Shown: one piece after another, positions 3,300 to 64,000 of the stretch
Position numbering within the stretch: the stretch's first letter is position 1
How the letters are laid out: each line of letters starts with the position of its first letter
DNA from: Antedon mediterranea
Taxonomy: Eukaryota; Echinodermata; Crinoidea; Comatulida; Antedonidae
Reading direction: 5' to 3'
NCBI RefSeq assembly: GCF_964355755.1
Contig: NC_092679.1
Coordinates: forward strand, 5,580,001-5,644,000
Length of the DNA stretch: 64,000 nt
Made by a program: the position numbers and the translations under genes
The notes under the pieces: model-generated
What the model was told of the DNA's origin: nothing
Databases searched by the model: none
The model's input: only the letters and a program-made list of their open reading frames with translations

Positions 3300-6203
3300 C
3301 TAATTAGCTGATTGCAATCCTTTCTTCATTGTTGCTACGACAACGGCGAAGACCACACCCCAAGCTGCTTTGTGTTTCTCGTCAAAAGTTTCGCCAACAG
3401 CTTCACAGAGGGCAAATATTAGGGCTTCTCCGACAGCCTGTGGAATGTTGAAATTAGTTAAATATACATTACAAGTATTAAGAATTTTTAATAAGAACAA
3501 CCTCGCAACTGAAATAAAGTAAAGGACACTGAGCTCGCCTTGCCAATAAAGGAACTCGTAACAATCTTTGATCTTATGTCTGGTTGCGACAAACAGTACT
3601 ACTAGGGGCGTAGCCACAGATAAAAAAATAAAAAAATAAATAAATTAAAAAGTGCCCCAACTAGAGAGACGCGACTGTAGGTTTGGCGCTTGATATAGTG
3701 TAATATAAATTGTGGTTCTTTTCTGCTCAGCAGAAAGTCGGTCTATTATAGCGCAGTGTGCGTGCGCCTGTGCGGAACACTTCTGATTAAGATTCTAATT
3801 ATGAAATTATTCAATTTATTGTTATGAAAGAAATAAGTTCTTTGTTGTTATCTATATGAATTTATTATCTCTAGAAATAAAAATTTCAAAAGATGTCGGT
3901 AAAAATTTTACCTCGAAATATTCAGGTTTTGCTTTGTACTTCTTGTGTCTTTTACCAAGACTTTCTAACTTTTTGGCCATTGGTGCAACGTCATCCAAAC
4001 CGTTAACGGCAACTCCTACCATCTTGATGACGCTGTTTGCGTGGTACACAAACTTACTATGTATTTTTAGCTCTTCCATTGGTAGGCCTAAATCACCAAA
4101 GGGGAATAGTCCTAGAAATTCTGGATGTTGCGTGAATAATCTACAATTTAATGGTTTAAATACATTTATAATTTCATTTGTTTGTTTTGTTTTATTTGTT
4201 TTCAGTTTATGTCCGGAAATGGCTATCGACACGGATAACCATGTGTAAAATTTGTCCGTATTTCAACGGTCGACCGTACCTATAGAAAACGTTTACACAC
4301 ACGTTTTCCCGTGCCGGTATCCTTATCTGTGTTATATAGTACAGGCCTATCAGATAGATATGTGTTTCAACTTGATATAATATCATTGAACGTGTTCATT
4401 TTTCGTCTAATTTCCGTTGATATGATATGAATATTCCTTGATCACACGAGCCATTCATTTTATAATTCGTGTTTGTTCATTTAAGAAAAGTGCATCTTTC
4501 CATTTAGAATGTGTCCGATGAATGGGCATTGAGGAGTGGAATTAGGGGTTGGGAGTGGGGGAGGGGTTGTGCGTGTTCCCGTGCTTGATATTCATGAAAG
4601 CAGGCCTTGTCTTTTAAGGTGAGCAAGTGCGATCACTCACCTAACACACTCCTAAAAGGCCTTTGAGGAGTGTGATTTACAACATTTCTACACACTAAAA
4701 TACAAACAGCACACCTACAGCACGCGCTGAATGTGAGAAGTGCAATTTGTAGCACATATATATTTTCAAAAGACAAGGCATGTGAAAGACGATCGTATAT
4801 AATGGTGATATAAAAAAAACATTTCCGGGCCAGTGATTATGAGCATTATTAGTATCCCTGATGTAAATTTAAAAAAAATTATCTTCTCAGTTGATGTTAA
4901 GGTTGTGTGATTTCCTTTACCCTCTATTGTGCATTTAAGCCGTAGTAAATATATAGATTAAATAGTACAGTAATAATTATTCCCACAAAAAGAAGTAAAA
5001 CATATTTGGAATTTTTCATTCGGTTGTATTATTTGATATCAAAGTTTATTGACCAGTTTTTGCTTTTTGTTGTACCGGTAGTATTTCCGCATTAGGGCGT
5101 TTAGTTCGTTTTAATCTATTGCTTCATAAAAAGAGACACCACAAACTGTTCTGCGTGTGCGTAAAGCTTGGTTCCCACTAGTGACGCAGCCAGTGGCAAC
5201 ACGGATGAGCGCTCAGTGGCTAAACTCAGAGGCCCCGGAGCTTATGTGGGCCACTGAGCAGTGTTCAGAGGTATTACAATTTGTTGAAAAAGGCTAAAAA
5301 CGCACGAGGCCTCCAGGCGTTGGAGGGCCACTTGGGGTTCCTAAACAGGGGCCTCAGGTCTCTACGTTACGCCACTGGACGCAACGCAAGTACGTAAAGC
5401 AAAGTAAAGCGTGGTTCCTACTAGCGACGCAACGCAAGGACGTAACGCAACGCGACTGAATTGACCAATCACAAGCGATGGCTTATTCGCTTGTGATTGC
5501 TAACTGTCTATAACTTCGCTTGTCATTGGTTAAAACGCTTGCGTTGCGCTTACGTACTTGTGTTACGTTCTAGTGGGAACCAAGCTTCAAGCTTGGTTCC
5601 CACTAAAACGCAACGTCAGGACGTAACGCAACGCAAAGTGATTTGACCAATCTCAATCGATGGCTTATTCGAAGCACTTTCTAAAGTAAATAATTAAACG
5701 CCGCTAAACCTATACGCAACGATGCGAATGGGTATATGAAACGCCTTTAGTCCGCATCATTTTGATTGAAGTAACACTCTTGCTTAAACGTACGTAGATC
5801 ACGCGTCGACCTTACGCGACATTATTGGCGTATTGCATTGAGAAACCTTTGTGCTAAACAGAAAATCAGGAAAGTACTACTTATTCGAATGGCTTGTTTG
5901 TTGGGTACTAAACGACTAGGAAGCAACGCAAGGGCGTAAGCGCAAGCAAACGAGTTGACCAATGACAAGCGACAGTTTCAATAATCCGTCGCTTGTGATT
6001 GGTAAAATTGCTTCCGTTGCGCCTACGTCCTATACCAAGCTTTAAAGTCTGAATCGAATACGCAAATTGTGTACGCGCACTGAGAGTGCTGAAGCCTACC
6101 TTGAAAACATGCAGACACCAGTACTACCCAAGGCATCTCTATCCACAAGACACTTCCAAGATGTTTGTACAAGATTCTTCTCTTCTGGTGTAGGTAACGT
6201 CAT
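3300..6203 (-). CDS. Globin (neuroglobin / globin X-like, cytosolic), 156 aa
   Basis: Three exons: 6203-6100 (ATG to phase-2 donor AG|GTAGGC), 4140-3912 (ends in phase 0 at GAG|GTAAAA) and 3437-3300 (TAG stop). They total 471 nt. The introns fall at the ancestral positions B12.2 and G7.0. The protein starts MTLPTPEEKNLVQTSW; an in-frame TAA lies ten codons upstream, so this ATG is the first available. Phe47 fits CD1, His68 fits distal E7, and His100 in LGKRHKKY fits proximal F8. The C-terminal exon resembles neuroglobin helices G-H (VGEALIF...AAWGVVFAVVVATM). It has no signal peptide or N-terminal extension. It would bind haem and handle O2, NO or redox chemistry; the physiological role cannot be read from sequence. 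Intron 1 (about 2 kb) holds a cluster of palindromic MITEs. It lies downstream of a second globin on the same strand, so this is a globin pair. Confidence 0.88.
5160..5672. mobile_element. MITE family A, nested or tandem copies
   Basis: Several copies of an inverted-repeat element with termini GCTTGGTTCCCACTAG and inner words GACGCAACGCAAGGACGTAA and TTGACCAATCACAAGCGATG. The best copy is 5406-5587; a half copy follows at 5587-5672 and a degraded end lies at about 5163-5185. It lies in intron 1 of the small globin gene. Confidence 0.85.
5920..6044. mobile_element. MITE family A copy
   Basis: Carries GCAACGCAAGGGCGTAAGCG, GTTGACCAATGACAAGCGAC and the inverse end TACGTCCTATACCAAGCTT. It ends about 55 bp downstream, in gene orientation, of exon 1 of the small globin. 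Confidence 0.8.
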
Positions 6204-7806: not shown

Positions 7807-7956
7807 TACCAATTACGCCTACATTCCAATTTATTGCTACCATAAACAAGTGACTCTTCTGTCATTCATGGTAATTAGCCCCTTTAGATGCCAATTCATG
7901 TGCTAGATAAGGTATCATTATTTGATATTCTGTGCTCATAGTATACCACTTCGATT

Positions 7957-8287
7957 ATCGGGACCTCCCCTGGATTCCATTACTGTACTGTCCCCTGGAT
8001 TCCATTACTGTACTGTCTCCTGGATTCTATTACTGTACTGTCTCCTGGATTCTATTACTGTACTGTCTCCTGGATTCCATTAGGCCTCTGTACTGTCCAC
8101 TGGATTCCATTACTGTACTGTCCCCTGGATTCAGTTACTGTACTGTCCCCTGGATTCCATTACTGTACTGTCCCCTGGATTACATTACTGTACTGTCCCC
8201 TGGATTCCATTACTGTACTGTCCCCTGGATTCCATTACTGTACTGTCCCCTGGATTCCATTACTGTACTGTCCCCTGGATTCCATTA
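7957..8287. repeat. 25-bp minisatellite
   Basis: About 13 tandem copies of TCCCCTGGATTCCATTACTG plus TACTG. Three units make 75 nt, so it stays open as a spurious reading frame. Confidence 0.95.
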
Positions 8288-9496
8288 CAATAATCCAAAT
8301 ATAACCTTACCTTTGCGTGCATCCTCTTGTAGGCCTACGAAATGTCATACAATTCTCATATTATCACCTCTGATATTAATTATATAATTCATTTATTTAA
8401 GATGTCTTTATTGATGACTGTTAACTCCCTTAGTGACGCATATCGAATTCACTCACATAATACCGATCCTCCTTTTAAAGTCTCCACGTATTACATATGC
8501 AGCTCAACAGACGCTTATATATCAATATCTCAATATTTAAGATCTAACTTACTGCCTGGTAGGCCTATCGTACACCATCATTGGCACCCTACGGCGTGCA
8601 AAAGCTGATAATATGGCACAGTTTTTGTACGCGCGCGTTAATATTATTCTGTTGCTTGAACTCGACTCTGTTTTTTTTTGTTATAACAAATTATCAAATA
8701 TAACTTGTTCTGATTTTCAATTACATCCCCTTTAGGCCTATATATATTTTTTAACGTGACATTAGTAGCGCACCAATTTAATTTTATAACAGATACACCT
8801 TATATACCCAGGCGTATATTATTTTATTTTATTATGAATATTTAACTGAAATAGTACGCTTAAGATATAATTAATAGAAATACGAAACCCTAACACCCAG
8901 TTTAGACATATTTATACATAGTTATAATTACATTGATATTTATATACAGATGCATTGTAAATTTCACTCTTCCCTGGATTTATTTATTCCCTGATTCTTT
9001 GTTTTAGGCCTAACAATTCAAATATTTAAAAATATAATTGTTTTTTATGACATTGTTTTTGTGGTGTAAGACGCTTTGTTAAAGCGCCATAGAAATGAAA
9101 TAAAATTAAATAAATATGTAAAAGGAAGTAAAAATCGTGGATGTTTACAACATTTAAAGGTTGTTTGTTCCCAACAAGTATTTGAATCATGGTTGTGAAC
9201 AGCCATTATATAAAAGAGAAAAGTCATGATACAAAACGATGTTTCCTTATTTTGTTGGTAACCCTTTTATCAACACACAGTTTAAGCAAGTGATAACAAG
9301 CACGTGTACTTATTGTACTTCTTTTCCAACACCTGAGTGAAGCCAGTTAAAATAAACGAATGTTAAACAATGTTGACGTTAAGTTTGTTCCACTTAATGT
9401 CCAACCGTAAAAATAGCTTGGACACACGTATGGGCGGCCATTAAGGTCAATATAGAAAAACCTATACACAGGCTAGTATTAAATAACATCAGTAAA

Positions 9497-11647
9497 TCAT
9501 TCATCTTTTAACTCGGCTGACATGATCTTCGCAACCGTTCCAATGACCGCGTCCCAAGCCTCGTTCACGTCCGCTGTCCATACTTTCTCATCTAACCCTT
9601 TCTTGTATGAGTACATGAGTGCCGCGTGCACAGCCTGCAAGTTGACAGAAATAAATAAATACAGTTGTTTTGAAACATTTTTGTTCGGTAGTACCAAAGA
9701 ACTTATAACACAAGAATCTTCTGTTCGTCCGATGCGCGTAACAATTTCGAAAGGCATTGTGGGATAGAATAGAGCTATGGGTGGCGCCATTGTGAGCCAT
9801 GGAGTAGGGCGCCCGCATCAAATTAGAAAGTCAAAATCATAGAGGGGATCTGCTAATGCTCTAGGGGGATGCAGTAATTGACTGAGGAGTAGGGCGCCCG
9901 CATCAAATTAGAAAGTCAAAATCATAGAGGGGATCTGCTAATACTCTAGGGGGGATAGAGTAATTGACTTCCTAGTTTGGAGGGGGCGCTGCTCCATGCT
10001 GTGAAATGGCGTCGCCCAGTTTGACCTTTTAACCCTGTACTTCCGATACTGTGTTTTGAATGCAAATTGAAGAACAGGAGATTCTTGTGTTATAAGTTCT
10101 TTGGTAGTACAAAACAATGTTAAAAATATCTACAATAGAACCCATAATATTGGGGATATCTTCGAGACCCAACAAAGTGTCCCTTGATGAGGGTGTCTTG
10201 CCATGTTAAACATTTCCCATTGTACACGTCACAGGAAAGTGTCCATAGTGTAAGGGTGTCCCTTTAGTAAGTGTGTCCCAAAAGATGGGTTGTTATTTTG
10301 TCCGCCCACTATAAAAATAATTGACCGTACCGTAAAATGTTCTGGTTTAGCACCATACATCCGATGACGTTGACCGAGGTCCGAAATAATCGGTACAAGA
10401 AGCTCGAGGTCATCTAGGCCCTGGATAGCTCTACCGATCATTTCCATCACCTGCCGAGAATGATTTTGAAAAGATGTGTCTGCTCGAAGTTCAGCCTCTG
10501 TTGCATAGTTCATTTTACCAAAAGACCACAAATGTCTTATTGTTGGGTTCTCGTCAAGAAGCCTATGAAAAAGAACAAAGTGGAGATATAGCTTGGTGAT
10601 TAACGTGCTTGTTTTTCATTCTCAAGGTCCAGGGTTCTATCCTGACCTAGTGTCAGGGTTCAATACTGACCTAGTGTCAGGGTTCAATCATGACCCAGTG
10701 AGTGTCAGAGTTCAATGCTGAACTTGACAGGATTATAACTTGCGATTCACCATCCACCCCTAAGCAAATGAGCCTTTATAAGCACGATAAATTATAGCTT
10801 GCCCATCCTGTAATTGATGAATGTCTTGCTGTTGATGCGTATGAAATTATACATATAAATAAATAAATCAAGAAAATATAAATCTTTTTTTTAATTAATA
10901 AATTTTTAACTTTAATAAAAAAAAAAAACACCCCAAAAAACAACACACGCAGATGTATAGAGAAGGAATCAATGTATACTATCATAGATGTCAGCGAATT
11001 TTATCTAAACTAAGTATACGAACCACAGTAGTCATATCGTAACTATCCGGTATGTTTTTTAAGGGCCTCATTTTCAAAAGAAGTGTTGTTTTTGTCGCTT
11101 ACCTGGCGAAGAATACCATTCCATATTCAAGAAGATCTTTTTCAATGTACGCCCACGAATCCTGAACCAGCCATTTTTGTTGCAATGTAATCGGCGACTC
11201 TTGTTGACCTGATGCATTCACCACCTCTGAAATTGTGACTTCCTCCAAAGTGTGACCTTCTGACACTCCTCCTTCCTCTGACACTATTCCTCTTTCTTTT
11301 GGCATTGCTTTTTCTGTTGTTTCCTTCTGATCCAATACTGCAACGTTTCCATTTTGTAATGGCAGTGACATCATCTCCGACTGATTGTCATCATTATTGG
11401 ATATTTCTGTCGCAACTGCAATACCATTAACTACATCATTTTCTAACAAAGGGTTATCCACATAATTATCATTGTCATCATTAACTCCTGGTTTTCCACA
11501 TAGTGCGCGTTTTTTAGAAAACGGAGTCCCCGTTTGCACTCCAAAGTCATGTCGTGATCTTACGGAACCATTGAAGTTTTTTTTAGTTTTTGATGGAATC
11601 TGCAACTTGACGTTGTCTGTTGTCGATTTACTTTCAAGACACCCCAT
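9497..11647 (-). CDS. Globin X-like protein with acylation motif and long acidic N-terminus, 304 aa
   Basis: Three exons: 11647-11103, 10562-10331 and 9634-9497, totalling 915 nt. The introns are B12.2 (phase 2, AG|G) and G7.0 (phase 0). The frame is open four codons further upstream, but only through a TTG; the first ATG gives MGCLESKS. Gly2 and Cys3 form an N-myristoylation plus palmitoylation motif, known to anchor globin X at membranes. About 155 residues of polar, acidic, probably disordered sequence precede the globin fold, which starts near LQQKWLVQDSW. His216 (NHSRQVM) fits distal E7 and His248 (LGQRHRMYG) fits proximal F8. The usual CD1 Phe aligns with Trp194 (HLWSFGK). Known globin X proteins have much shorter N-termini. 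Intron 2 carries a 409-bp inverted-repeat element. It lies upstream of, and on the same strand as, the small globin. Confidence 0.88.
9695..10103. mobile_element. Inverted-repeat DNA element with 7-bp target duplication
   Basis: Termini CAAAGAACTTATAACACAAG and its inverse at 10103 extend about 35 bp. Both sides are flanked by GTAGTAC (9688-9694 and 10104-10110). Inside is an 85-bp direct duplication beginning GGAGTAGGGCGCCCGCATCA at 9801 and 9886. There is no coding capacity. It lies in intron 2 of the globin X-like gene. Confidence 0.8.
10140..10300. repeat. Dispersed GTGTCCC-rich repeat
   Basis: Phrases such as AAGTGTCCCTTGATGAGGGTGTC recur here. Related wording is at about 48280-48620 and 61450-61550. 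It is a degenerate interspersed element in intron 2 of the globin X-like gene. Confidence 0.5.
10622..10728. repeat. 24-bp tandem repeat
   Basis: About four copies of TGACCTAGTGTCAGGGTTCA plus ATAC, in intron 1 of the globin X-like gene. Confidence 0.8.
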
Positions 11648-11879
11648 TATATTTTCCAACTGAAACTAACGTGAAGAATATTTTTATCAACATAATTATT
11701 TTAAGCTAGGAAACCTTATTCTCGATAATGTTTTCCAATAATGAAATAACAATACCATAATTAGGCTACTTTGACCTTTTTTATATTTAAAATAGAACAT
11801 TCAATCAGGAAAGAGTATAATTACTATTTCAGTATAGTAATTTTACTCTACCCTGATTCAATCATCAGTTCAATGATCT

Positions 11880-12896
11880 GCATCTCACGAAAACTTGGAT
11901 ACGCTCATAGATCTAGTTAATGGTGAACTAAAAAATGTTTCGGATTGGTTCATGTGCAATAAACTATCAATCAACGTTAAAAAAACTAATTACATAATTT
12001 TCCGCAATCAGCGAAATCCAATTAAATTAGAGAATGTAAATATTTATGTCAACAATAAAAGAATAGATAGAGTTAAATCGACTAAATTCCTTGGAGTACA
12101 TATTGATGAATTTCTCACATATAAGAATCACATCAATGTTACAGCTAGGAAAATATCTCGATATGTAAGTAAGTAAGTAAGACATTTTTTACCAACCTAT
12201 GCTCTCTGGACAATATACAAATCACTCATTGAACCAGTATTAAATTATTGCAACATAATATGGTGTAGTACATTTCCAAGTTATCTAGATGAGTTATTTA
12301 GACTCCAGAAAAGGGCATTACGAGCTATAACATGGTCAAAGTTTAATGATTCAATGACTGAATGTTTCTATAAATTTAAACTTCTTAAAATTGCGGATAT
12401 CAATAGGTACCAAATTGGGCTTTTCATGTATAATGTTACTACTAATCAGGACGTGCGTTTTTCATCGCTCTTTATTAAAAATGGTTCTTACCATTATTAT
12501 AATACAAGATCTAAAGACAAAATGAGACTCGGAAAACGTAATCGTACTTCTACTAGTTTTACTGTGTCATGTGTGGGAACTAAATTGTGGAATGACTTGA
12601 ATTACGAACTACAAAGTACCAAATCAATATTTATATTTAAATCATTGTTTAAAGAACATTTATTATCATTTTACAAATAATTTTAAAATAATACTTGTTG
12701 CAGGATTTAACTTTTTTTATTATTTATGTTTTAGTTTTTAGGCTAGTTAGGGACGTAGGGGGACACAATTAATCAAGCTCTTTTGAGTTTTTATATGTTT
12801 CCTTTTCATCTTTTTTTTTTTATGTTCTCATATATTGTTGTATATTTTCATGATTGATGATGAATAAAGAATATTTGAATTTGAATGATTAAAGTA
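11880..12896 (+). mobile_element. Non-LTR retrotransposon, 5'-truncated and frameshifted
   Basis: The C-terminal part of a LINE reverse transcriptase ORF. It reads NGELKNVSDWFMCNKLSINV and STKFLGVHIDEFLTYKNHI, then breaks at a TAAG repeat (about 12166-12180). It resumes with LPTYALWTIYKSLIEPVLNY and LDELFRLQKRALRAITWSK, and ends FKSLFKEHLLSFYK with a stop at 12678-12680. The 3' end has AATAAAGAATATTTGAATTTG. The catalytic YxDD core and any endonuclease are absent, so the copy is dead. The style is that of the Jockey/CR1/Rex group; I cannot assign a clade. Confidence 0.85.
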
Positions 12897-19000: not shown

Positions 19001-20203
19001 AAGCATTAGATACTTGGCCTAAAACCCTCTGTAGCTTAGCACTAGACTCACTTTAAAATGCCTTGTACACAAGACCTCCTAACTACGGTAGGCCTAAAAT
19101 AATTTAATGAATTTGAATTTAGGAGTATCTTTACATTGTGAAAGAAGAACCTGTTATACAATCAGTCCAGTTATTCAATACTGAATTGAGAATAAAGGAG
19201 AAGGATATATGTTTGTATGTCACTTTGCCATTCATGATTCATTGTCTATTTATGAATGGAATCCTTTTAAACCTCAAACAATGATCAACAAACTACTGTT
19301 CTCAACTCTCACTATTTAACACTCTGTAAACTTTACTGAAAAATTGAAAATAAAAGAACCATGATGTCCAATTTTCAGGACATCTAATGTTTTTATTTGA
19401 TTATGTTTTTCCTTTGTAATGTATTACTGTATATGATAAAATTAAAAAAAATCTAATGTTTAAAAAGAATTCAAATGTACTGTACAGTTGGAATTTAGCT
19501 ATTTAGATGTTACGGAAATTTGACAGCATAATAGTTAATACCACTTTTATATGTTTTAACCATTTATATTGTCTACAGTATCAATGACAATCATAAAAAA
19601 ATAGGATGAATGTGCTAACTGTATGTTGGCGTTATATGTGGCGTTAAGTTGATTATTGGTGTTCAAAATAATAATACTGTCATAGAATTCTTCCAGTGAA
19701 AAGTTACTTTTAAATGGAGCTATTATTCATTAATAAGTTGTACAAATACAAACTTACTGTAATGAAATGTAAATAAATTCAAAGTAATCTATATGAGAAA
19801 TACAGTACATTCAATATCTTCTTTCTACTCAACAGTATTGATAAACATTCACTATCTATTTGGTTTCTCACAATTTATTTTTAATCTTTGCTACCATATC
19901 TTTCTGGCGTCGAATCATTTGATCTATAACCAATCCCAATCCATTTTGCTCATCTTCTTTCAAGACGTGATTACGAGTTCTGTAACGACTTGCTATAATG
20001 GGTCATTTTGAGTGCACTGACTGCTGACTGCTAGTTTTTATCCAGCATTGTAGGTGCCTTGATGGTTTATGCTAATTTTAACCAAAAGTCTAGCTGCATG
20101 ATTTTAACTAATGTTGTACAGATTTTTAGTTGACTATGTTTTAAAAAGCAAAAAAAATATTGCACAAAATGATAATAATTTTTTTTTTTTTATAGGAATA
20201 AAA

Positions 20204-36754
<16,551 letters not shown>

Positions 36755-44500: not shown

Positions 44501-46500
44501 TCTACATGAAAACAAAATCAAGAAATACTGTATCAAGACTTATCATTAGTGACGTCACGAAAGGAACACAAAGTTGACGCGCGCTTAATTTATTCATCAA
44601 CACTTGAACGCGCTCGTCCAATTCGTTGTGTCACTGAATGGTATACAGTAACTGAATTGTTTAAAATAAATCGCAAAATGCTCCACACCTTATGTAATTA
44701 TTTACCTATAATATTAGAATGTGTTTTTTCAACCGGATCGTTTTTTACAGTACATGTATTGTTCACATTTAGCCCCCTACCACAATGTGTTTTTTCAACC
44801 AAATCGATTGGTTTCATTTCATGATATAATAATAATTATTATTCATTTCATGTTAGGCGGCCTAGAAGAAGTTTAAATATTTGACAACTAAGTTTATATT
44901 GGATTTATTATACATTTTGGTATTTTATATCCTTTTATTTTATAATCATATTTGGCAGAAGTTAGAATAGCCTATATACAAAATAATACAAATCGTTTAC
45001 CCTCTTTGGGTGGTTTTTGAACCGGTTGTTGATGTCCAACCATCACCATATAAGGACCTTTAAAAAAAGAATATGAAACAAAAACTTTTTAAAAAAAGAG
45101 ATGCAATTAGAGGTTAATGGCGGATCACCAACCTGGTATATGTTACTATACTATAGGCCTAAGATTAATCTGCAAACTATATTCTGTGACGTAAAGTAAG
45201 CGCTCCAAATAGTGAGTTGACCAATCACAAGCGATTACTTGGTGAGCTCTTTACATCTTTGTGAAGAGGCGCTAGTATATGTTTTATCTAGATTTCCTTG
45301 GTTCTATCGTATTTACTATAATACGTCATAATATTATGAATATGAAAGATAGCTTTTAATATATTGAAGAACACCGGTTGAACAGTATGCATTGTTCCAC
45401 TCACTTTCATATACAACTTCATCATTAATTGGTATTTTATCGGTGGTTTTGCTAAACTCGGTTGATGGCACGTTGACATATCCTAAAAGAAATCAACAAC
45501 AATAGACGTACTTTAGTGAGAACATGGAACTATATTATATTACAGTTCCATGGTGAGAAGGGTGCTGGAAGTTAGTGATGATGGTAATGATGACATCACA
45601 ATTAAGAAGATGTTCAAAACGATGACACAGATACATAACAACTGTAAAGTAACTGTAACTTTTTGAGTTAACCTAAGCCCATCTAATTATATCGGTATGC
45701 ACGTCCAAGCTTCATAACAAAGGCAAAATAGCCGCACCACCGATGAACAAATCTTATATAAATATTATCCAAATCGTTGTGTTTAATTGAATCACACGAC
45801 TGGACTATCGAGTGTTGCTTTTTTGACATATCATAGGCCTATAATATTCAATGAATCATTTAGAATTGTGTCCCGATTTCGCTTTGAAATTTATCAATTA
45901 GATTAGCAAGAAGCAACATGACCTTATTAATTAAACTCGTTTTTAGGCCTACTTCTTTTGTGTACCAGAGTGGAAATAATATAGGCCTATGCAATAAGAC
46001 TACAAGAGCCTCTATTCAAGGGACACCCCTGTGCCTAATTTCCACGTTCTTGATTTTAAATAGGCCTATCTAATTTTATGTAATTTTATAGATTGTATGA
46101 TTTGCTACAATATTATTTATGTGTTGTAATAAAAACCAAGTAGGGTATACCAACCATTATTATTTAAGGTTGTCCTCTTTACGTCGAATAACAATGCTTC
46201 TATTATACTACAGGTAGATTCCTTGTATCTTTTGACGATATTACTAAGAAGAAAATTACTCTGCATTGTATCAATATCACCGTCACATAGTTCTATCGTT
46301 TTCCGGCATGAGGGACAAGGTATGCCTAGCACCTTCGATATTTTCACTCCCTTCCTGGATCCGTTCGCTTTATTCTGGCGTTCTTGCAAAGCGTTGAAGA
46401 TGGAACGGAGGCATTTCCGACAAAAACTGTGTGCGCACGGTAAAAGTACGGGATCATCATAAAACTCAAAACAACACGGACATGTTAATTCATTGTCCAT
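41543..46500 (-). CDS. RING-finger (TRIM-like) protein with a chain of tiny phase-1 exons
   Basis: Exon 1 starts at ATG 46500. The frame continues upstream only via TTG. It reads MDNELTCPCCFEFYDDP, a C3HC4 RING with ligands Cys7, Cys10, Cys22, His24, Cys27, Cys30, Cys62 and Cys65 and a long loop before the last pair, as in TRIM proteins. It is probably an E3 ubiquitin ligase. Downstream lie ten short exons with good splice sites, all starting and, except the last, ending in phase 1: 45482-45405, 45057-45001, 44127-44062, 43791-43753, 43053-43000, 42691-42644, 42481-42425, 42103-42017, 41844-41785 and 41616-41543 (stop TAG). They code a polar tail with a PPAPPPPPPA stretch and basic-Ser motifs (RRKS, IRRKSS). 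No B-box, coiled coil or SPRY is seen. The exact donor of exon 1 (between 46210 and 46130) is unresolved, so joining RING to tail is an inference. Confidence 0.6.
42221..42402. repeat. Tandem repeat of about 20 bp
   Basis: Diverged copies of TGCGTCTTGAACGACGTAA. It lies in an intron of the RING gene. Confidence 0.85.
42511..42590. repeat. 17-bp tandem repeat
   Basis: Four to five copies of CATTATCAACATGAGGT in an intron of the RING gene. Confidence 0.9.
42783..42929. mobile_element. MITE family A copy
   Basis: TTGGTTCCTCCCACTAGGAC at the left, GTTGCGTCCTAGTGGGAAAA at the right, with CCAATCACGACGCGATGG and its inverse inside. It lies between two of the tiny exons of the RING gene. Confidence 0.9.
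43403..43586. mobile_element. MITE family A copy (good inverted repeat)
   Basis: AAGCTTGGTTCCCACTAGAA at the left, TTGCGTTGCGTCGCTAGTGG at the right, with ATGACAAGCGAAGTTATAGA at the centre, as in the copy at 5406-5587. Intron of the RING gene. Confidence 0.9.
43915..43988. repeat. Short tandem repeat of 22-23 bp
   Basis: Three to four copies of CCGGTCGTTCGTTTGTCCTA with changes. Confidence 0.75.
45186..45240. mobile_element. MITE family A fragment
   Basis: GTGACGTAAAGTAAGCGC and GAGTTGACCAATCACAAGCG match one arm; the other arm is missing. Confidence 0.5.
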
Positions 46501-46794
46501 TTTCTCACTACATTTGCCAGGCCAAAACTTCGAGACACCTACCTCTATTTCTATTTCTGTCAAAGCAGCTTTATTATTTAAATTGACTTATCTGTGTATG
46601 CTGTATTATGAAGCTAGTGTGAAACGAGTAACGCATTGGTGACATAATACAATATTATATTGTTTATGGATAAACATTGTACAGCAAGGCGGAAGAACTT
46701 TAAAGGAAATTATCTGATATATTATCATCAGCGTGAATACCAGCTTCAACGCGTACATGAACCGCCTCGGAGACGGGGATTCTAGAGGAGTTGG

Positions 46795-49579: not shown

Positions 49580-52500
49580 TTAATATGTTTCAACTTGATG
49601 AAGTCGCTGACGTCTTGATGGCGAAAGGGATCTTGTTCTTGACCTCCTGGGCGTATCCACAGCTCCTGTATAACCTTCGCGAAATCCTGAATCCATTTGA
49701 CCAAGGCTTCGTTCCAAAGTGTGCGACGTGAGAGAGTGCGAGTGATGAGCCTGGATAATTTTTTCTAAGCGTGTGATAATCTCATAATCAGGCACAGAGA
49801 GTAAGGTGACGTCCAGGCCCAGCATACGCGATATTACCTGACGGAAGTCAAGCAGCTGCTTCTCTCGCTGCTGCATGTCTGCAAGGAGTGCTTTCGTTGC
49901 ACGTAACTCCTCCATGAGAGCAGTAACTGATCGGTCGGCATGGAATCTTTTATCGCTTGCTTCTTGTTCTGTGAATTCAATCTCGTTTTTCATTCCAGCT
50001 ATTTTACGTGCTTGTCTTTCTTTCGTCTTTTCCAGTTTGGTTAACTCTTTGCAAAGGGCGTCTATATGGTCTCCTTGCACAAGGTTTGTAGACTAAACAA
50101 AACAAATAAAAAGACGCATATATTGTAATTTCCTACCAGAATATAAACACAAATGATTAAATGGTTAACATGCAAATGTTAAGTTCTGCTAGAAAAATAT
50201 ACATTTACATTAAAGTTTTACATAAATTTACATTAATTTTTTTGGGTTAATCAATACATTGTATGTACCGAGGTAGTGTAGCTCTGCAAATTATACAAAT
50301 ATCGATTCATTTCTATCTCTCTCTTGATTTTGTTTTGTTAATAAACTTATTAACCAAATATGAGAAATACTAAAATGTTAAAAATACCTTTATTTCGCCA
50401 ATCTCCATTAATTTTGCTTTCAGCTCAAGAATGACCTGTCTGGCAGAACCAAGTTGACCTCGAAGACGGTCATTCTCCTTCTGAAGTTTCTTCTGACCCA
50501 TAACAATGTCATCCTTAAACAAATTATACACAAATAATAAAAAAAAACAACCTAATATAATGGTACAACAAATATATCATGGAAACTATTGTCAAGTATG
50601 TGTCTATTTTTCAGTTTTACAGTACTCACTTTTAATAAATTATCACACACAAATTAATAACTTTCTTGTAATTTTACCTTTTCTTTTTCCAACGTTGACC
50701 TCCCTAACAGACCTTCGTCCTGTGTACAAATCTTCTTCCTGAGAAGGTCGATGTGTAAGTCTTTGCTCTCCAATTGTTGTTTCATCGTTTTCAACTTTCG
50801 TTGCAAGTTGTAAACATGAGTTGTTTTATCTGTAATTGTATCCACTTCTTTTCGCATCACCTGTTCAGCTCGTGCCAGAACTGCGTCGGTGCAAAGGTCA
50901 AACCCGACGTCCAGAGCGATTACGTCCATCTTTAGGACTCTGCATATCTTTTCGATGAAAGCCATGTACTGTAAAGTAGATAAAAATATGAAGATGGTTT
51001 ATTAAACTTGGTTTCATATAAATAGACAATAATAAAATTTGTAAATATCTTTATTTTGAAATAGAGGCTCCTTCACAAATAAATGTGTTTTTCAATGAGC
51101 AATGCACAATAATCAATATTTGATAGCTAGATAAATTCACTTTAATTGAGTATTCACCTTCTTGCGCTCAGCACGTATAGTGTCTTTCAGTACGTCGCCA
51201 GTGTTCAGATCATCTTCCATTGTTCTAATTCTGAACCTGAAGTCTCCCAGGTTTTCCTCTGCCTCCTTTGCTCGTTGGATGGTAGAGTGATGCAGTTCAA
51301 CTTGGTTGTGCAGTTGGTCTGACAAACTCTTAACCTTTGCTTCAAGTACATCTATAAACTGTCAAAATAAAAAACAATAAAATCATCATAACTTATCATA
51401 ATATCTAACCAGGTATAAGTAGATTCTGGGGAAAGGTGCATGTCAAATGCTATGTATAGTATGGCAGATGAAATAGTATACAAATATTGACTGTGATGAG
51501 GAGCATAGTTCAAAATATAGGTGATCTGGAGAATTGAATTATTATATTTATTGCTATATTATAGTTTCAAACGAACTTACACTTTGTCTTTCCTTTGATG
51601 TGGAATGTATGTTCTTAATTTGACTTTTAACAATCTCCTCAGTAGGCTCACAAGACAGCAAGGCAGCCAACGAATCCTTAAAAGATTTCAGTTCAGCTTT
51701 GGCTACCTGAGCTTCAAACTCCAACGATGACTTAGCGTGGCTATATTCACTCAGACGAGATTCACGTTGATTCAACTCTTCTCGGGTAAGTTCCCATGCT
51801 TTCTTGTCAGCATTAAATCTTTCACGAAGAAGGGTATTTTCTCGTTCAAGGTCCTTTTTAGCTTGGACTGCTGTTTCCTTTTCCTTAAATTATAAATAAA
51901 ATTTTGAAATTTAGTATATGTTTTGGTCATAGAAACTGGTAATGAAGGATGACTAGCAAAACTCTACGGCTGTCAACACTAGCATTCTGTTTGTTGTGTG
52001 CAATTTATTTATTCTTTATACTGGGTCACCAAACTTCAAATATAAAAGGACTATTAATGACTGGGAGGCATTTTAAAATAGAGAGGAAAAAAACAATGAA
52101 CCTACCAATCGCATTCTTTCATTTGTAACCAGTGAAGTTGATGACTGCCGCTGACCTTTTGTAAGTTCTTCTGAAAGACGATGAATAGTCTCTCGTCCAG
52201 CCTTTGATTCCAATTCCAAACTGTTGACAGATTCGGAGAGAGAGCTGACCTTTCCACGCAAAGTCAGATTTTCTTGCACGACATCGTTAATCTAAAAAAA
52301 ATGAAATTATAATTATTATATTAATATTTAGCACTAAGCCGAAATTTGTTATCCTCCTAAAACAAAAATTTCTGACGTTCCAGATGGGGCAACTTTTTAA
52401 TTTCCCTTGAGTCATTCAGCAATTTTTTTCTGAAATATGTTTAATTTACGAATTAATCATGAACTGATGAATTTATAGATAATTTTTTGTTTTGAAGAGT

Positions 52501-55500
52501 GGTTATCAAATCAAATAAATAATAAGCACAAAATCAAGAAAACCTGCACTAATGATTCAAAATGTACATACCTTTGATGCCATGTATTCCGGTGTTCGAT
52601 CCTCCACAGATGCAACATCTTTTAGTTGTAGAAATATACTGTGAAACTGCCTATCCCATGATTCTAGTTTCCTCTCCGCTGCTTCTCGTTCCTCGATGAG
52701 GTTACGATTCCTTCTCTCAAGCTCTAGTATCTTCTCCTGAAGATTACTATTCTCCTTCTGCAACGTACCGATAGCAAACTCTCCTCTTACTGACACGTCA
52801 GTTTTGTCCTTTAGCTCTTGAATGCGGGTTTGTAGAGTGATCACGAGGGCAGCATTACGATCACTGCTCTCTTTGTACGCACTGACCTGACCTTTTAGAT
52901 CGTCAATTTGAATATCGCGTGAGTTAAGTCGACTCTGGTAATCTCTTGTCTGAAAGGTAAAAATACAATTGCTATTATGGCTATTATTATTAGGGCTACA
53001 GTATGTGAACCAGTTCACCCCCTACTTGTCTCAAAAGTTGTTTTTATGTAGTAATTGGTCTTACCTCAGCTTTCATCTGGTCCACCTGTAACTGCATCAT
53101 GCTTATTTCTCGCGACACGTCAACCGAATGACGATGATGTGAGTCACTTAAATATTCACGAGAACCAAGAACATCAGTTGGATAAATTGTTGAAATCTGT
53201 AAACAGTAAATAATAATTGATTTTAAAATTACACAAACAATAGAAATGTATCACTATAAATTTTTCTACTGCAGTTACTGCAGTTTATAGTTTTTAAATT
53301 GTTATTTTAAATGAACAGTAAATTATTTTATGTTGAAAGTGACATTTTTTGTTAAATTATAACTTATCCGTGTACTACAGTATATATAAATCAAAGAGCT
53401 GCATAGGCAGGATATAGAAAAAAATCAAGATCAAATAAGTTAAAACTGCCTCAATATAGATTTATTTTAACGACATGTTTCGGGCATAGCCCATCATCAG
53501 GTGAAAAGAATTGTAACAAAGGATAACATATATAAGTCACAAAATTACATAATAAAACAAATCAGCCAATCAAAGATGTTAACAAACAAAAGGCATACTA
53601 CAGTATATATACTGTACTGTGTTTAATGACCGAAAGTAGATGGCATAAATATTGGTCAGGTCATAATGGCATAATCTTTTTCTGTGCGCAATATTCTAAC
53701 GTATAACGTGCATGTGGTGTTTGTTGTGCAGATAACTAACTCGTCAAAAATACGAGTTCAAATCTAGTTTTTTTAAGTGGATGAAATTTAAAACAATTTT
53801 AAAAATCTATAATACATTTCAATTTTGGATTTGTTAAGTTTTTCAATTAATTTATATTATAATTTATAATCTTTTAAAGGGATGAACATTTTTTTTTACA
53901 AATACAATATCAATTTCGATTAGATTTGTCAATTATTTGAATTAAGAAATAAATTAAAAATCTATAGTAAATTATTTCTAAAATCACATTTTAAAAAAGG
54001 CAATTCAATTTATTCATCTTGTTTTGCGTAATATTCTCTTTCGTAAGCACCTTGAACAAAAGAGCACACAGCACAGGGAATATAACAATAAAATCACAGA
54101 TTCCTAGTAGAATCCTAAGAATATTAATGCAAAATTTTAAAATGAAATTTTTCCCTGATGTAAAATCAATGTTGCCAGCACATTAAACCTCATGATATGT
54201 CCATGTACACCCTCACATATCTCATCAACCATTCCATACACTGATCATGTTAATGTTTCATTTAATTTAGTTGCCTAGGTGATATGTATGGTAAACCAAT
54301 AATTCAATGACATAAATTCTTTCTATTTAATTTTAAATTTATATAGAAATTCAATAAATAAATATAATATAAATAACATTAATTTGTTGTAAACGATGCA
54401 ATAGTCAACAGAGAATGGCCACATTTATTAAATATAGTAATATGATTTATTGCTTAAAAATATAATTACACTAAGTATTATTTTTTATTTTATAACTAAT
54501 CATTCTATTCACTGGAAAACATCATATCAGTTTTAAATAGTATTTACAGTACAGTAAGTACAATTTAATAAATAAAAGATTTGAAGTTTAAGGACCGGTA
54601 GTGTATATAAATAATCATTAAATCCGATTTTTTTTTATTAAACTACTTAATATGATTTCATGTTTAATTATTAAATAATAAAATGATCAAAATTAATATA
54701 GTAGAATATCAGACAGATTGTTCACTGTTTTTACTAAAATCCAAATGTATGTTTCTAAATCTGTAATAAATAATTCAGAGTCTTAAATACAAAACTTGAG
54801 AGGCAAAGGATTATTGTTGATCACGAATGAAAAATATGAAAATGATTATGCAGAGTGTGTTAAGGCAACTGCTGACGCATGCTGTACACGTGTGCAGTGA
54901 AATGTGATCAAGTTAATAAAATGAATAAACGTCAAGAATACATTGTATAGAAATAAAATCTGAAAAGACTATTGAGAACAAAAAGATATTAGTCATTTAT
55001 AGGGGCTGTGTCAGTCGAATTTGTTAATTTATTTGTTCAATTTTATCATTTACTTAAAGGCCAAATATTTTGATTTTTTTTCCATTTTTTATCCGTCTAT
55101 AAATTTAAAATGTGATCAACTTAGATATCCATCTATTGTCGTAGTTTTCATGTATATAAGCGACATTTATTAAGTAATTTTTCAAATTAATTGAAATTAA
55201 ATCAATATAAAAATAGCAATTATATAAATAATAATACAAAAATTGTAAAATAATATTCTTCAATACAGTAGATGAGCAATGTTTTATTTTATCATTCTAA
55301 ATATTATTTTTTATATTATTCTTTTTTGGAATAAAACCACTTTCCTGATTATAGAGCTAAAATAAATAATAATATTGATGATTTCTTTAATAACTTGGTT
55401 GTTAAATAAACACAATATGATAATCAACTACCTACTATCTATCAGCAATAATAATCTCTATCGGGCTGTACCTAATTAGGCGTGACTGTTGCTAACGGTA

Positions 55501-60869: not shown

Positions 60870-63472
60870 TTATAATACGACGATGTACAAAACTTGAATT
60901 ACCAACATCAAAAATGCTCTTGAACAATTTACACAAACTAAATGGAAAGAAGCAATAATGGAAAACAACTGACTCATACTTCAGATCAAGCATAAAAAAA
61001 AAACATTCATCTGCGATTTTTTCACCAAAGGACAAATTGAACGAAGCATAATTATCGTTAATAGATTACTAGAATTGTGAACTAATAAACTTCAATAAGT
61101 TCCAACAAACTGTATCTTCCTCATACAGCTCTACATACCTGTATAAAGCATGTTCTGTGTTTAATCAATTACAAATTTAATTTTACAATAGGGCTAAATA
61201 ATAATTTAATAAAGATTAATCAAATAGAGACAATAAAAAAACAAAGCTGCTTATTGGTTGAATGTGAAAAAGAATAAAATAAAGAGTTTCTTTACAATTT
61301 AAATTGCATTGTTTTGTGTTTTATTCAACTACAGTTAGAACTCCTATTAATGAAATACCTTGTGGAACCAGGGAAGAGTTAAATTACAATTTAACTCTTT
61401 AATTTAATTTAACTCTTCCCTGGTGGAACCAAGATACTATCTTGGTTCCGTGTCCCTTGAATAGAAATTTCCCATAGTGTTAATAGATTGTCTCTGCATT
61501 TATTTCACGTGGAAGTGTCCCCTTAATAGGGTTTCTCAAAGGAGGGGCTCTATACTAACTACTATTGTAACGTACTGATGATACAGTACTATACTCTCTT
61601 GGTAACACATGGGTTTTGGTCACTCGCACAACTATCACTATTCATTTTAAGTTGAAAATTCGAGCCAAAAACAACAGGTTTACGTAATTAACAGGTAAAT
61701 TAATTTGATTATATTTCGTCTGGAAAATCGTCGCGAGCGAAAGTAAACAAAGATTTCAAACCACGAGTATGCATTATGCATGATGCTAATTAGGATTGTT
61801 TACAACTCATCACGGGTGAAAATGTGTTTTCATACAGATCTCAAGGAAGTTTTATGATTATGCATACAGAGTAGCCAAACAAGCGCGTTGCATTATGAGA
61901 TATGTTTTGATCAAAAACTTTGAATGAAAGTCAAAGTTATTTTTTGAACAAAAAAAACGTCTGTATTTCAGTTAAATGATTTGTTTTTCGACTAATTTTT
62001 GGTGAAAGTTAATAACTATTATGATACTTCAAAATGACCCACTTTTTTCGAAATCTTTTTTTTTTTTTAATTAGTCAAAGGGACAATACATCTTTAATCA
62101 TATAATAACCATTAACGTTATAGAAGCCGATGGTTGGAAAGAAGAACCATTGTAAATTGACAGACTACAGCGTAAGATTAAACAGCAGTCAACAATACCG
62201 CGCACAATTTACCGGCGGTCAGGGTATTTTTATTAATTTTTTGTAGATTTATAATGTTTCTGAACATTGCATTTTGCCGGGGATTCCCTACACCCTCTTC
62301 ATATCCTTACGTCCGTAATATTGGGCCGAATTTCCGTAGTAAATTAAAGCACGTCGAAATAAGTCCGTGTTCAATTGCTTCTTTCTGCAAATTTCGATCA
62401 TATTTTCTTTTCTCTGGATTGAGGTTTAAGCAATATTGTTAGTCGCAAAATCGCGTGTGTTTTACCGGCGGGATAGACCTCAATGGTGGATAAATAGCAA
62501 AAAAAACCATTTTGTATGAAATTAAGTGTGTTGCTTGTGGTCCGCCTTGCCAAATCGCTTCATTAAAACATAGCAACAACAAAAAAGAATCGTAATCCAG
62601 TCACTAATGTGCTTGTTACCAATATTATTGTTTCCTTATGAATACAGTAATATATTGTTTTTATGGCTCTTCACTACCAAGCCAGGTAATACACAGGGGA
62701 ATGTATAATAGGGGTCATAAATGGTACACGATAGAATATTATAGTTGCAATGGCCTACTACTAATGTTCTCCCCTATGATCCGTTGCATTCGTCGGACAT
62801 TTTTGGTATCATGAACCTATGAATTTTAATTTATCAGACATTGAATTATGTATCATCAGTGAATGAATAGTGTGTAAATAAAAATCAGTGACCCGCTTCA
62901 GATAAAGAAAAGGTTCTGTATACAGGACCCTATTGATACGCAAATCACACCTTGTGTATAGCTACCATAGCAACAGTGATCACAATTGACGTTAAGTACT
63001 AGACGAATGGTGGGTCGTGGTAATAATGCGATCGAAGTTCACAATCAATTCTAGACAGGAAAAATATACAGCATAGTGTACTCGTGTCCTATCATATTTA
63101 AATTTAATGACGCTGAATGAAACAGAAGTATTTAATTTGTCTCCAGGAAGCTACAGCAGACGTTATAAGAATGAAAAGGTGCAATTTGTAACGTCGTCGT
63201 CACGTCGGCCTACAACCGGTAACATTCTGTTTTTATCGTGTATATGGAAAACAACCTGTTGTATCGTCTCTGTAGATAGATATTTTACGAAGCAGGTGTT
63301 TTGAGAAAAATGTTTCAATAACGAACGCAAAATTACTATTTTTTACCCATAAATCATCTGGATTCTGTGGAGTGTACAAGGGTAGTGACGGGGGAGAATA
63401 TTTGTTGAACTCACGTGGTCGTTTTAGGAGAAATGTTTCTTGTTTGCTGTCTACAAAACTACAAAAAGTAAA
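60870..63472. other. Intergenic region 5' of ANKEF1
   Basis: AT-rich DNA with a hairpin at 61368-61428 and a GTGTCCC-type dispersed repeat at 61450-61550. The 5' UTR or promoter of ANKEF1 should lie within the last few hundred bases. No other exon is recognised. Confidence 0.5.
61368..61428. repeat. Hairpin
   Basis: Arms CCAGGGAAGAGTTAAATT and AATTTAACTCTTCCCTGG surround ACAATTTAACTCTTTAATTT-like filler, giving a perfect 18-bp stem. Confidence 0.85.
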
Positions 63473-63818
63473 ATGCCAGTTGCTCAGACAAGATTGGAGG
63501 TTCTCCAAATACATAAACTCTTGCAGTGCGTTCGCACCAAGGACACTGATCAGATAGAAAAGCTCTGTTCACACGGGGTACAGCATCTAATCAACTATAG
63601 TGAACCCAATGAAGGAGATACTGCGATTCATTTGGCTGCCAAGGCTAACGATGAAGACATGACGAGGTTCTTATTGTCACTTGGGGCTCACCCTAATGTC
63701 ACGGATCTTAAGGGACGGACGGCAGCAATGAGGGCTGCAGAGTATGGCCATATACAGACACTAGACATCTTATGCAACGCCACTTCAGATATGAAGATTA
63801 AAGACATTGATGGCAAAG
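63473..63818 (+). CDS. ANKEF1: Ankyrin repeat and EF-hand protein 1, first coding exon (partial)
   Basis: ATG at 63473, donor AAAG|GTAATA after 63818 (phase 1). The frame extends 11 codons upstream only through a TTG. The 115 residues start MPVAQTRLEVLQIHKLLQCV and continue KDTDQIEKL...LINYSEP, then ankyrin repeats: GDTAIHLAAKANDEDMTRFL, LGAHPNVTDLKGRTAAMRAA and EYGHIQTLDIL. The order RLExLQIxKxLQCVRxKDxxQIEKL...LINYxEP is the N-terminus I recognise from ANKEF1 (ANKRD5), an axonemal ankyrin protein of sperm and cilia in mammals. The rest, with the EF-hands, lies beyond the window. Confidence 0.85.
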
Positions 63819-64000
63819 GTAATAAATATACTATTTTAAATACTATTGGCCTACTTTCCTCATAGTATAACCCCTAGGAGACACATTTTGGACCAACAAA
63901 CATTTCCTCTTGACCAAGGGTTGCTTGTAGATAACATCGACCGTGACACTATAGTTCTTTTCACAGTCCTTTCAATGAGGGGTGTCCAGGAATAGTTATT

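Follow-up and report, generated by a model that had tools for sequence, protein, structure and literature searches.

A tandem neuroglobin-like gene of the crinoid Antedon mediterranea with a predicted dual-acylation start and a long N-terminal arm

Neuroglobin lies beside POMT2 in vertebrates, and orthologs in amphioxus, sea urchin and Trichoplax were established by means of this linkage (PMC3087553, PMC3485006). The clade that holds it, clade V, is treated as cytoplasmic by Song et al. (PMC7771090). Globin X has SRP14 as its neighbour (PMC3206486), with plekhg3 as a further linked gene, and in the zebrafish protein both acyl sites are required for the membrane location (PMC3176823). The myristoyl and palmitoyl sites are likewise required for the plasma-membrane location of GLB-12 of C. 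elegans, whose superoxide signal depends on this anchor (PMC4686822). Predicted acylation is widespread in animal globins and occurs in clades II-IV, in spiralian globins and in some hemoglobin-like globins of arthropods (PMC7771090, PMC7457136). Long extensions are also known, namely in nematode, amphioxus and arthropod globins (PMC2867796, PMC3087553, PMC7457136), with GLB-23 carrying "an exceptionally large" extension and arthropod globin X averaging 228 aa in total (PMC7457136, PMC2867796). Whether the blood and tissue globins of animals descend from a membrane-bound ancestor or whether anchoring arose repeatedly is disputed, with Song et al. 2020 (PMC7771090) representing one side.

The window analyzed here is a stretch of 64,000 nucleotides of A. 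mediterranea (contig NC_092679.1, positions 5,580,001 to 5,644,000), and coordinates refer to it unless a contig is given. It contains a three-exon globin gene on the minus strand (11647-9497), whose joined frame is open, encodes 304 aa and starts with MGCLESK. Exon 1 (11103-11647, minus strand, 545 nt) comprises this start, an extension of about 155 residues and globin helices A-B up to a phase-2 donor at B12.2. Its delimitation is based on the open frame, the coding periodicity, the donor score of 11.1 and its occurrence as a single genomic copy. Exon 2 (10331-10562, minus strand, 232 nt) encodes helices B-G with His E7, Val E11, His F8 and Trp CD1, as seen from the Pfam Globin match and the alignment to neuroglobin, and exon 3 (9497-9634, minus strand, 138 nt including the TGA) encodes helices G-H and the stop. 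With a simple weight matrix, three of the four splice sites were strong, with 11.1 bits for the first donor (CAG/GTAAGC) and 11.7 and 9.8 bits for the acceptors, and the second donor was moderate. Introns are found only at B12.2 (phase 2) and G7.0 (phase 0), two ancestral positions that most metazoan globins retain (PMC4527676, PMC3485006). The globin domain, whose fold is recognized by homology, is complete at residues ~157-299 (Pfam PF00042, E=9.4e-16). The open frame, this Pfam match and the PROSITE pattern discussed below bear out the first-pass annotation in its description of a globin with an MGC start of the dual-acylation type and an unusually long N-terminal arm.

Intron 2 contains an insertion-like element (9690-10115), delimited by eye, whose ends (GTACTACCAAAGAACTTATAACACAAGAATC ... 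GATTCTTGTGTTATAAGTTCTTTGGTACTACC) are inverted and which includes a direct repeat of ~85 bp; it resembles a short inverted-repeat transposon.

Compared with solved structures, the globin domain scored 75 bits against the bacterial globin HGbI, 67.6 against neuroglobin, 46.1 against cytoglobin and about 32 against vertebrate hemoglobins (32 for hemoglobin beta). Neuroglobin is therefore the best match among animal globins of known structure, a set that includes no globin X. In a small tree, for which textbook sequences of myoglobin and hemoglobin were used, the arm-bearing globin, its tandem neighbour and a third globin of the same contig grouped with neuroglobin and HGbI, apart from cytoglobin, myoglobin and hemoglobin, with support of 93/99. 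The alignment to human neuroglobin shows that Phe B10, His E7, Val E11 and His F8 are all kept. Since both histidines are present, a bis-His heme is plausible. At CD1, Trp replaces the near-invariant Phe, which all four of the other aligned globins of this genome keep. This replacement could weaken heme binding, and it may be read as a second sign of a shift of this globin away from oxygen storage.

The surroundings of the gene match those of neuroglobin. A tandem neighbour (3300-6203, minus strand; exons 6203-6100, 4140-3912 and 3437-3300) is an ordinary neuroglobin-like gene of 156 aa with the same neuroglobin affinity. It has neither an extension nor an acylation signal, and the two genes form a head-to-tail pair. 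At the left end of the window, the last exon of a POMT2-type protein O-mannosyltransferase (PMT) gene was found on the plus strand (1258-1392, start approximate), based on a match to positions 169-202 of the 202 positions of Pfam PMT_4TMC with E=7.8e-5, which falls under the curated score cut-off of the family. The other PMT and MIR exons of this gene lie just left of the window (contig 5573214-5577417), and it begins at least ~6.8 kb to the left. A search of the whole genome for MIR and PMT domains returned two PMT genes, one beside the globins and one on C4. The gene beside the globins is closest to yeast Pmt2 (89.5 bits versus 85.1 for Pmt4, and 40.7 versus 36.8 on one exon). We assign it to the POMT2 type by sequence similarity because its best match is of the Pmt2 class while the C4 copy is closest to Pmt4-type enzymes; the margin of 4.4 bits is small, yet the two genes split as expected. 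TMEM63, which is also a neighbour of neuroglobin in vertebrates, is located on the same contig at a distance of 2.2 Mb.

Taken together, these observations indicate that the gene very probably belongs to the neuroglobin lineage. The first-pass annotation had named it globin X, a name that found no support. If the gene were a globin X or X-like ortholog with a lengthened N-terminus, this would explain the Gly2/Cys3 start, which is typical of globin X (PMC3176823), and globin X is present in invertebrates including the acorn worm (PMC3206486). The best match among solved structures could not have revealed a globin X either, since none is in that set. However, its tandem partner is a second neuroglobin-like gene, a POMT2-type gene lies next to them, and the only SRP14 match is on the same contig at a distance of 13.3 Mb. 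In addition, no intron interrupts exon 2 between B12.2 and G7.0 or exon 3 before the stop, so that the E10.2 intron, usual in globin X of vertebrates and of most arthropods (PMC3206486, PMC7457136), and the H10.0 intron of vertebrate globin X are both absent; this is weak evidence, since many invertebrate globins lack both. Nor is the MGC start the globin X signature for which it had been taken, since predicted acylation is found in several globin clades (PMC7771090, PMC7457136). Because of the POMT2-type neighbour, the distant SRP14 and the missing introns, neuroglobin lineage is the better name, a choice that is founded on synteny, introns and best match and not on a full tree, and a globin X identity is unlikely.

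Further globins were observed in the genome. The third globin of the contig, 0.53 Mb away, is short and starts with MSLTINEIS. A cytoglobin-like globin (C1:16661951-16664447, plus strand; 85 bits to CYGB) has an extra intron in its N-terminal part, and its first exon starts with MGGEQSYLGK, which fits a myristoylation pattern but lacks Cys3. Another globin, encoded at C10:12997901-12998694 (plus strand), is strongly diverged and has Gln at E7; a search for its exon 1 at C10:12.99 Mb did not find it. At C7:4814493 (plus strand), a short exon that resembles a globin from near helix E onward (FVDHALQVTKCVGNAIQQFDN...) may represent a sixth globin, which would have an extra intron.

The rest of the window contains several other features. 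A P21-Rho-binding domain exon (20108-20416) and the start of a protein kinase domain (32591-33010), both on the plus strand, apparently belong to one PAK gene, which we take to be of the PAK4-6 type. A TRIM-like RING finger exon (46120-46587, minus strand), several long coiled-coil exons that are probably part of one centrosomal-type protein, with weak Pfam matches (49583-53021, minus strand), and an ankyrin-repeat exon (63428-63862, plus strand) were also observed. The tandem arrays at 31362-32204 and 29632-30246 have a unit that is open in several frames on both strands and thus produce long non-gene ORFs, and a minisatellite with units of ~26 bp (GGAATCCAGGGGACAGTACAGTAAT) is located at 7930-8300.

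The first-pass annotation had proposed an N-myristoylation prediction as a check, and the start MGCLESK (11627-11647, minus strand) does fit the PROSITE pattern PS00008, with Cys3 and Lys7. Gly2 and Cys3 are arranged as in zebrafish globin X (PMC3176823), which makes this a predicted signal for N-myristoylation of Gly2 and S-palmitoylation of Cys3. The codon is the first ATG of exon 1, and its context is good, with A at -3 and G at +4. Shortly before it, a candidate 3' splice site (TTCTTCACGTTAGTTTCAG followed by TT; 11660-11678, minus strand; score 6.0) has 11659 as its first exon base and ends 12 nt upstream of the ATG. It most simply suggests an intron in the 5' UTR, although an upstream exon is also possible. 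In the latter case, the true start would lie in that exon, MGC would be internal, and the product would be a longer, soluble, multi-part globin without a lipid anchor. The frame is indeed open from the candidate site, which is plausible as an acceptor, and the protein of the sea urchin neuroglobin locus is polymeric (PMC4527676, PMC3485006). However, an exact MGCxxSK after a good start context would in that case have arisen by chance, with a probability estimated by us at ~2 in 100,000 from typical residue frequencies, and a 5' UTR intron accounts equally well for the same splice site. An upstream start is therefore rather improbable, and with fairly good confidence MGC can be regarded as the real start, targeted to the membrane.

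The arm that follows this start differs in charge along its length. Residues 1-55 (11483-11647, minus strand) are basic, with 11 K/R, 3 D/E and a net charge of +8, while residues 56-155 (11183-11482, minus strand) are acidic, with 4 K/R, 21 D/E and a net charge of -17, and are predicted to be disordered. An earlier description of the whole extension as acidic is thus accurate for residues 56-155 and wrong for residues 1-55. The arm is rich in N, V, E, S, G, K, T and D, and aromatic residues are scarce. When exon 1 alone was modelled with AlphaFold2 from the single sequence, pLDDT was below 50 for most of residues 1-132 with a mean of 43.9, and even helices A-B were mostly poor; this is consistent with a disordered chain, for which it is weak evidence. 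No relatives of the arm were found over threshold in Pfam (a weak DUF7445 match has E=0.2), solved structures yielded nothing convincing (E at least 0.7), searches of the genome at the protein and DNA levels gave no second copy, and viral contigs gave no relative. The opposite strand (11877-12680, plus strand) carries remnants of a reverse-transcriptase-like ORF of a non-LTR element, which lie upstream of exon 1 at a distance of ~230 bp, and the piece at 12177-12677 has no Pfam match. A transposon origin of the arm was considered and rejected despite these remnants, since the arm DNA is single-copy.

Several properties indicate that the arm is coding. Its 155 codons contain no stop in their own frame, whereas the remaining forward frames have 6 and 16 stops and those of the reverse strand 5-10. 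Its period-3 signal is 5.4, while the window mean is 1.1 and 0.5% of the 465-nt stretches of the window reach 5.4. Stop-free frames of arm length are rare in the window with repeats excluded (7 of 16,680 sampled, all from four ORFs). Within exon 1, the arm runs on unbroken into the globin part. A scan of splice sites for in-frame pairs supported no intron able to remove the whole extension. Because of the stop-free frame, the periodicity, the continuity with the globin and the weak cryptic acceptors, an origin of the arm as an unspliced artefact, which had been named as grounds for rejecting the extension, is unlikely. It is also very improbable that an internal promoter or splice skips most of the arm and leaves an ordinary short globin as the working product, since the internal Met codons of exon 1 and some in-frame cryptic intron pairs that would permit this are set against periodicity and zero stops across the whole arm and against acceptors of 2.3-2.6 bits, compared to 9.8-11.7 for the real ones, and removal of these introns would still leave at least ~80 residues with MGC.

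This gene is probably best explained as a tandem duplicate of neuroglobin whose predicted myristate/palmitate anchor sits on a long arm, first basic and then acidic. The arm-bearing globin would be the second member of the head-to-tail pair at the POMT2 locus, and its exon 1 would have gained the membrane-anchoring arm. Gly2 would be myristoylated during translation and Cys3 palmitoylated thereafter. The basic residues 1-55 may form an electrostatic foot that holds the chain to the acidic inner leaflet, and the acidic, disordered residues 56-155 may act as a spacer bearing the globin. Because of the dual-acylation-type start and the long flexible arm, the protein is probably tethered to the membrane, in agreement with the initial proposal. 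The heme is probably six-coordinate through His F8 and His E7. The domain might then carry out redox, nitrite/NO or superoxide chemistry at the membrane, at the inner leaflet, rather than oxygen storage; such a redox or NO role is a tentative suggestion by analogy. The charge-patterned arm might even be a regulated electrostatic switch by which the heme domain nears or leaves the membrane. Also possible, though short of an even chance, is the evolutionary scenario that a copy at the neuroglobin-POMT2 locus became membrane-anchored after tandem duplication by gaining the dual-acylation start and the 155-residue tether in a single exon. If true, membrane-bound globins would have arisen here independently of globin X and X-like globins.

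No report of an acylation signal together with a long extension in a gene of the neuroglobin locus was found in the open papers that were searched, and Blank and Burmester 2012, the main survey, may contain one. These authors reportedly take the side opposing Song et al. 2020 in the dispute on a membrane-bound globin ancestor versus repeated anchoring. The presence of a soluble neuroglobin next to one predicted to be membrane-anchored, at the conserved neuroglobin locus, makes it possible to test directly and on a small scale whether anchoring was gained or lost. The two genes also form a matched pair for the effect of anchoring on neuroglobin chemistry.

Compared to described globins, the gene is most similar to neuroglobin (clade V of Song et al. 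2020, including the POMT2-linked amphioxus BflGb4), with which it shares His E7, His F8, Val E11, Phe B10 and the POMT2 linkage. Invertebrate neuroglobins likewise have the two ancestral introns and no central intron. However, neuroglobins have ~150 aa and are described as cytoplasmic, whereas this globin has the long arm, the predicted dual acylation and Trp instead of Phe at CD1. With globin X of zebrafish and invertebrates it shares the Gly2/Cys3 start with predicted myristoyl-Gly2 and palmitoyl-Cys3 and an N-terminal extension, but it differs in the absence of the E10.2 and H10.0 introns, in the lack of SRP14 linkage and in its neuroglobin-type domain. The claim that known N-termini are far shorter applies to vertebrate globin X, with an extension of ~25 aa compared to ~155 here (PMC3176823), but not to GLB-23 and arthropod globin X (PMC7457136, PMC2867796). 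These also have long N-terminal extensions, although they belong to other globin lineages, and the comparison made here is one of extension length. Among the nematode globins, GLB-12 is acyl-anchored and GLB-26 is predicted to be myristoylated, redox roles have been described for both, and CD1 of GLB-26 is Ile and thus likewise not Phe (PMC2867796). However, the membrane-targeting region of GLB-12 is just ~30 aa long, and both belong to nematode lineages at different loci. Acylated globins and long extensions are therefore each known, while their combination at the neuroglobin locus appears to be new.
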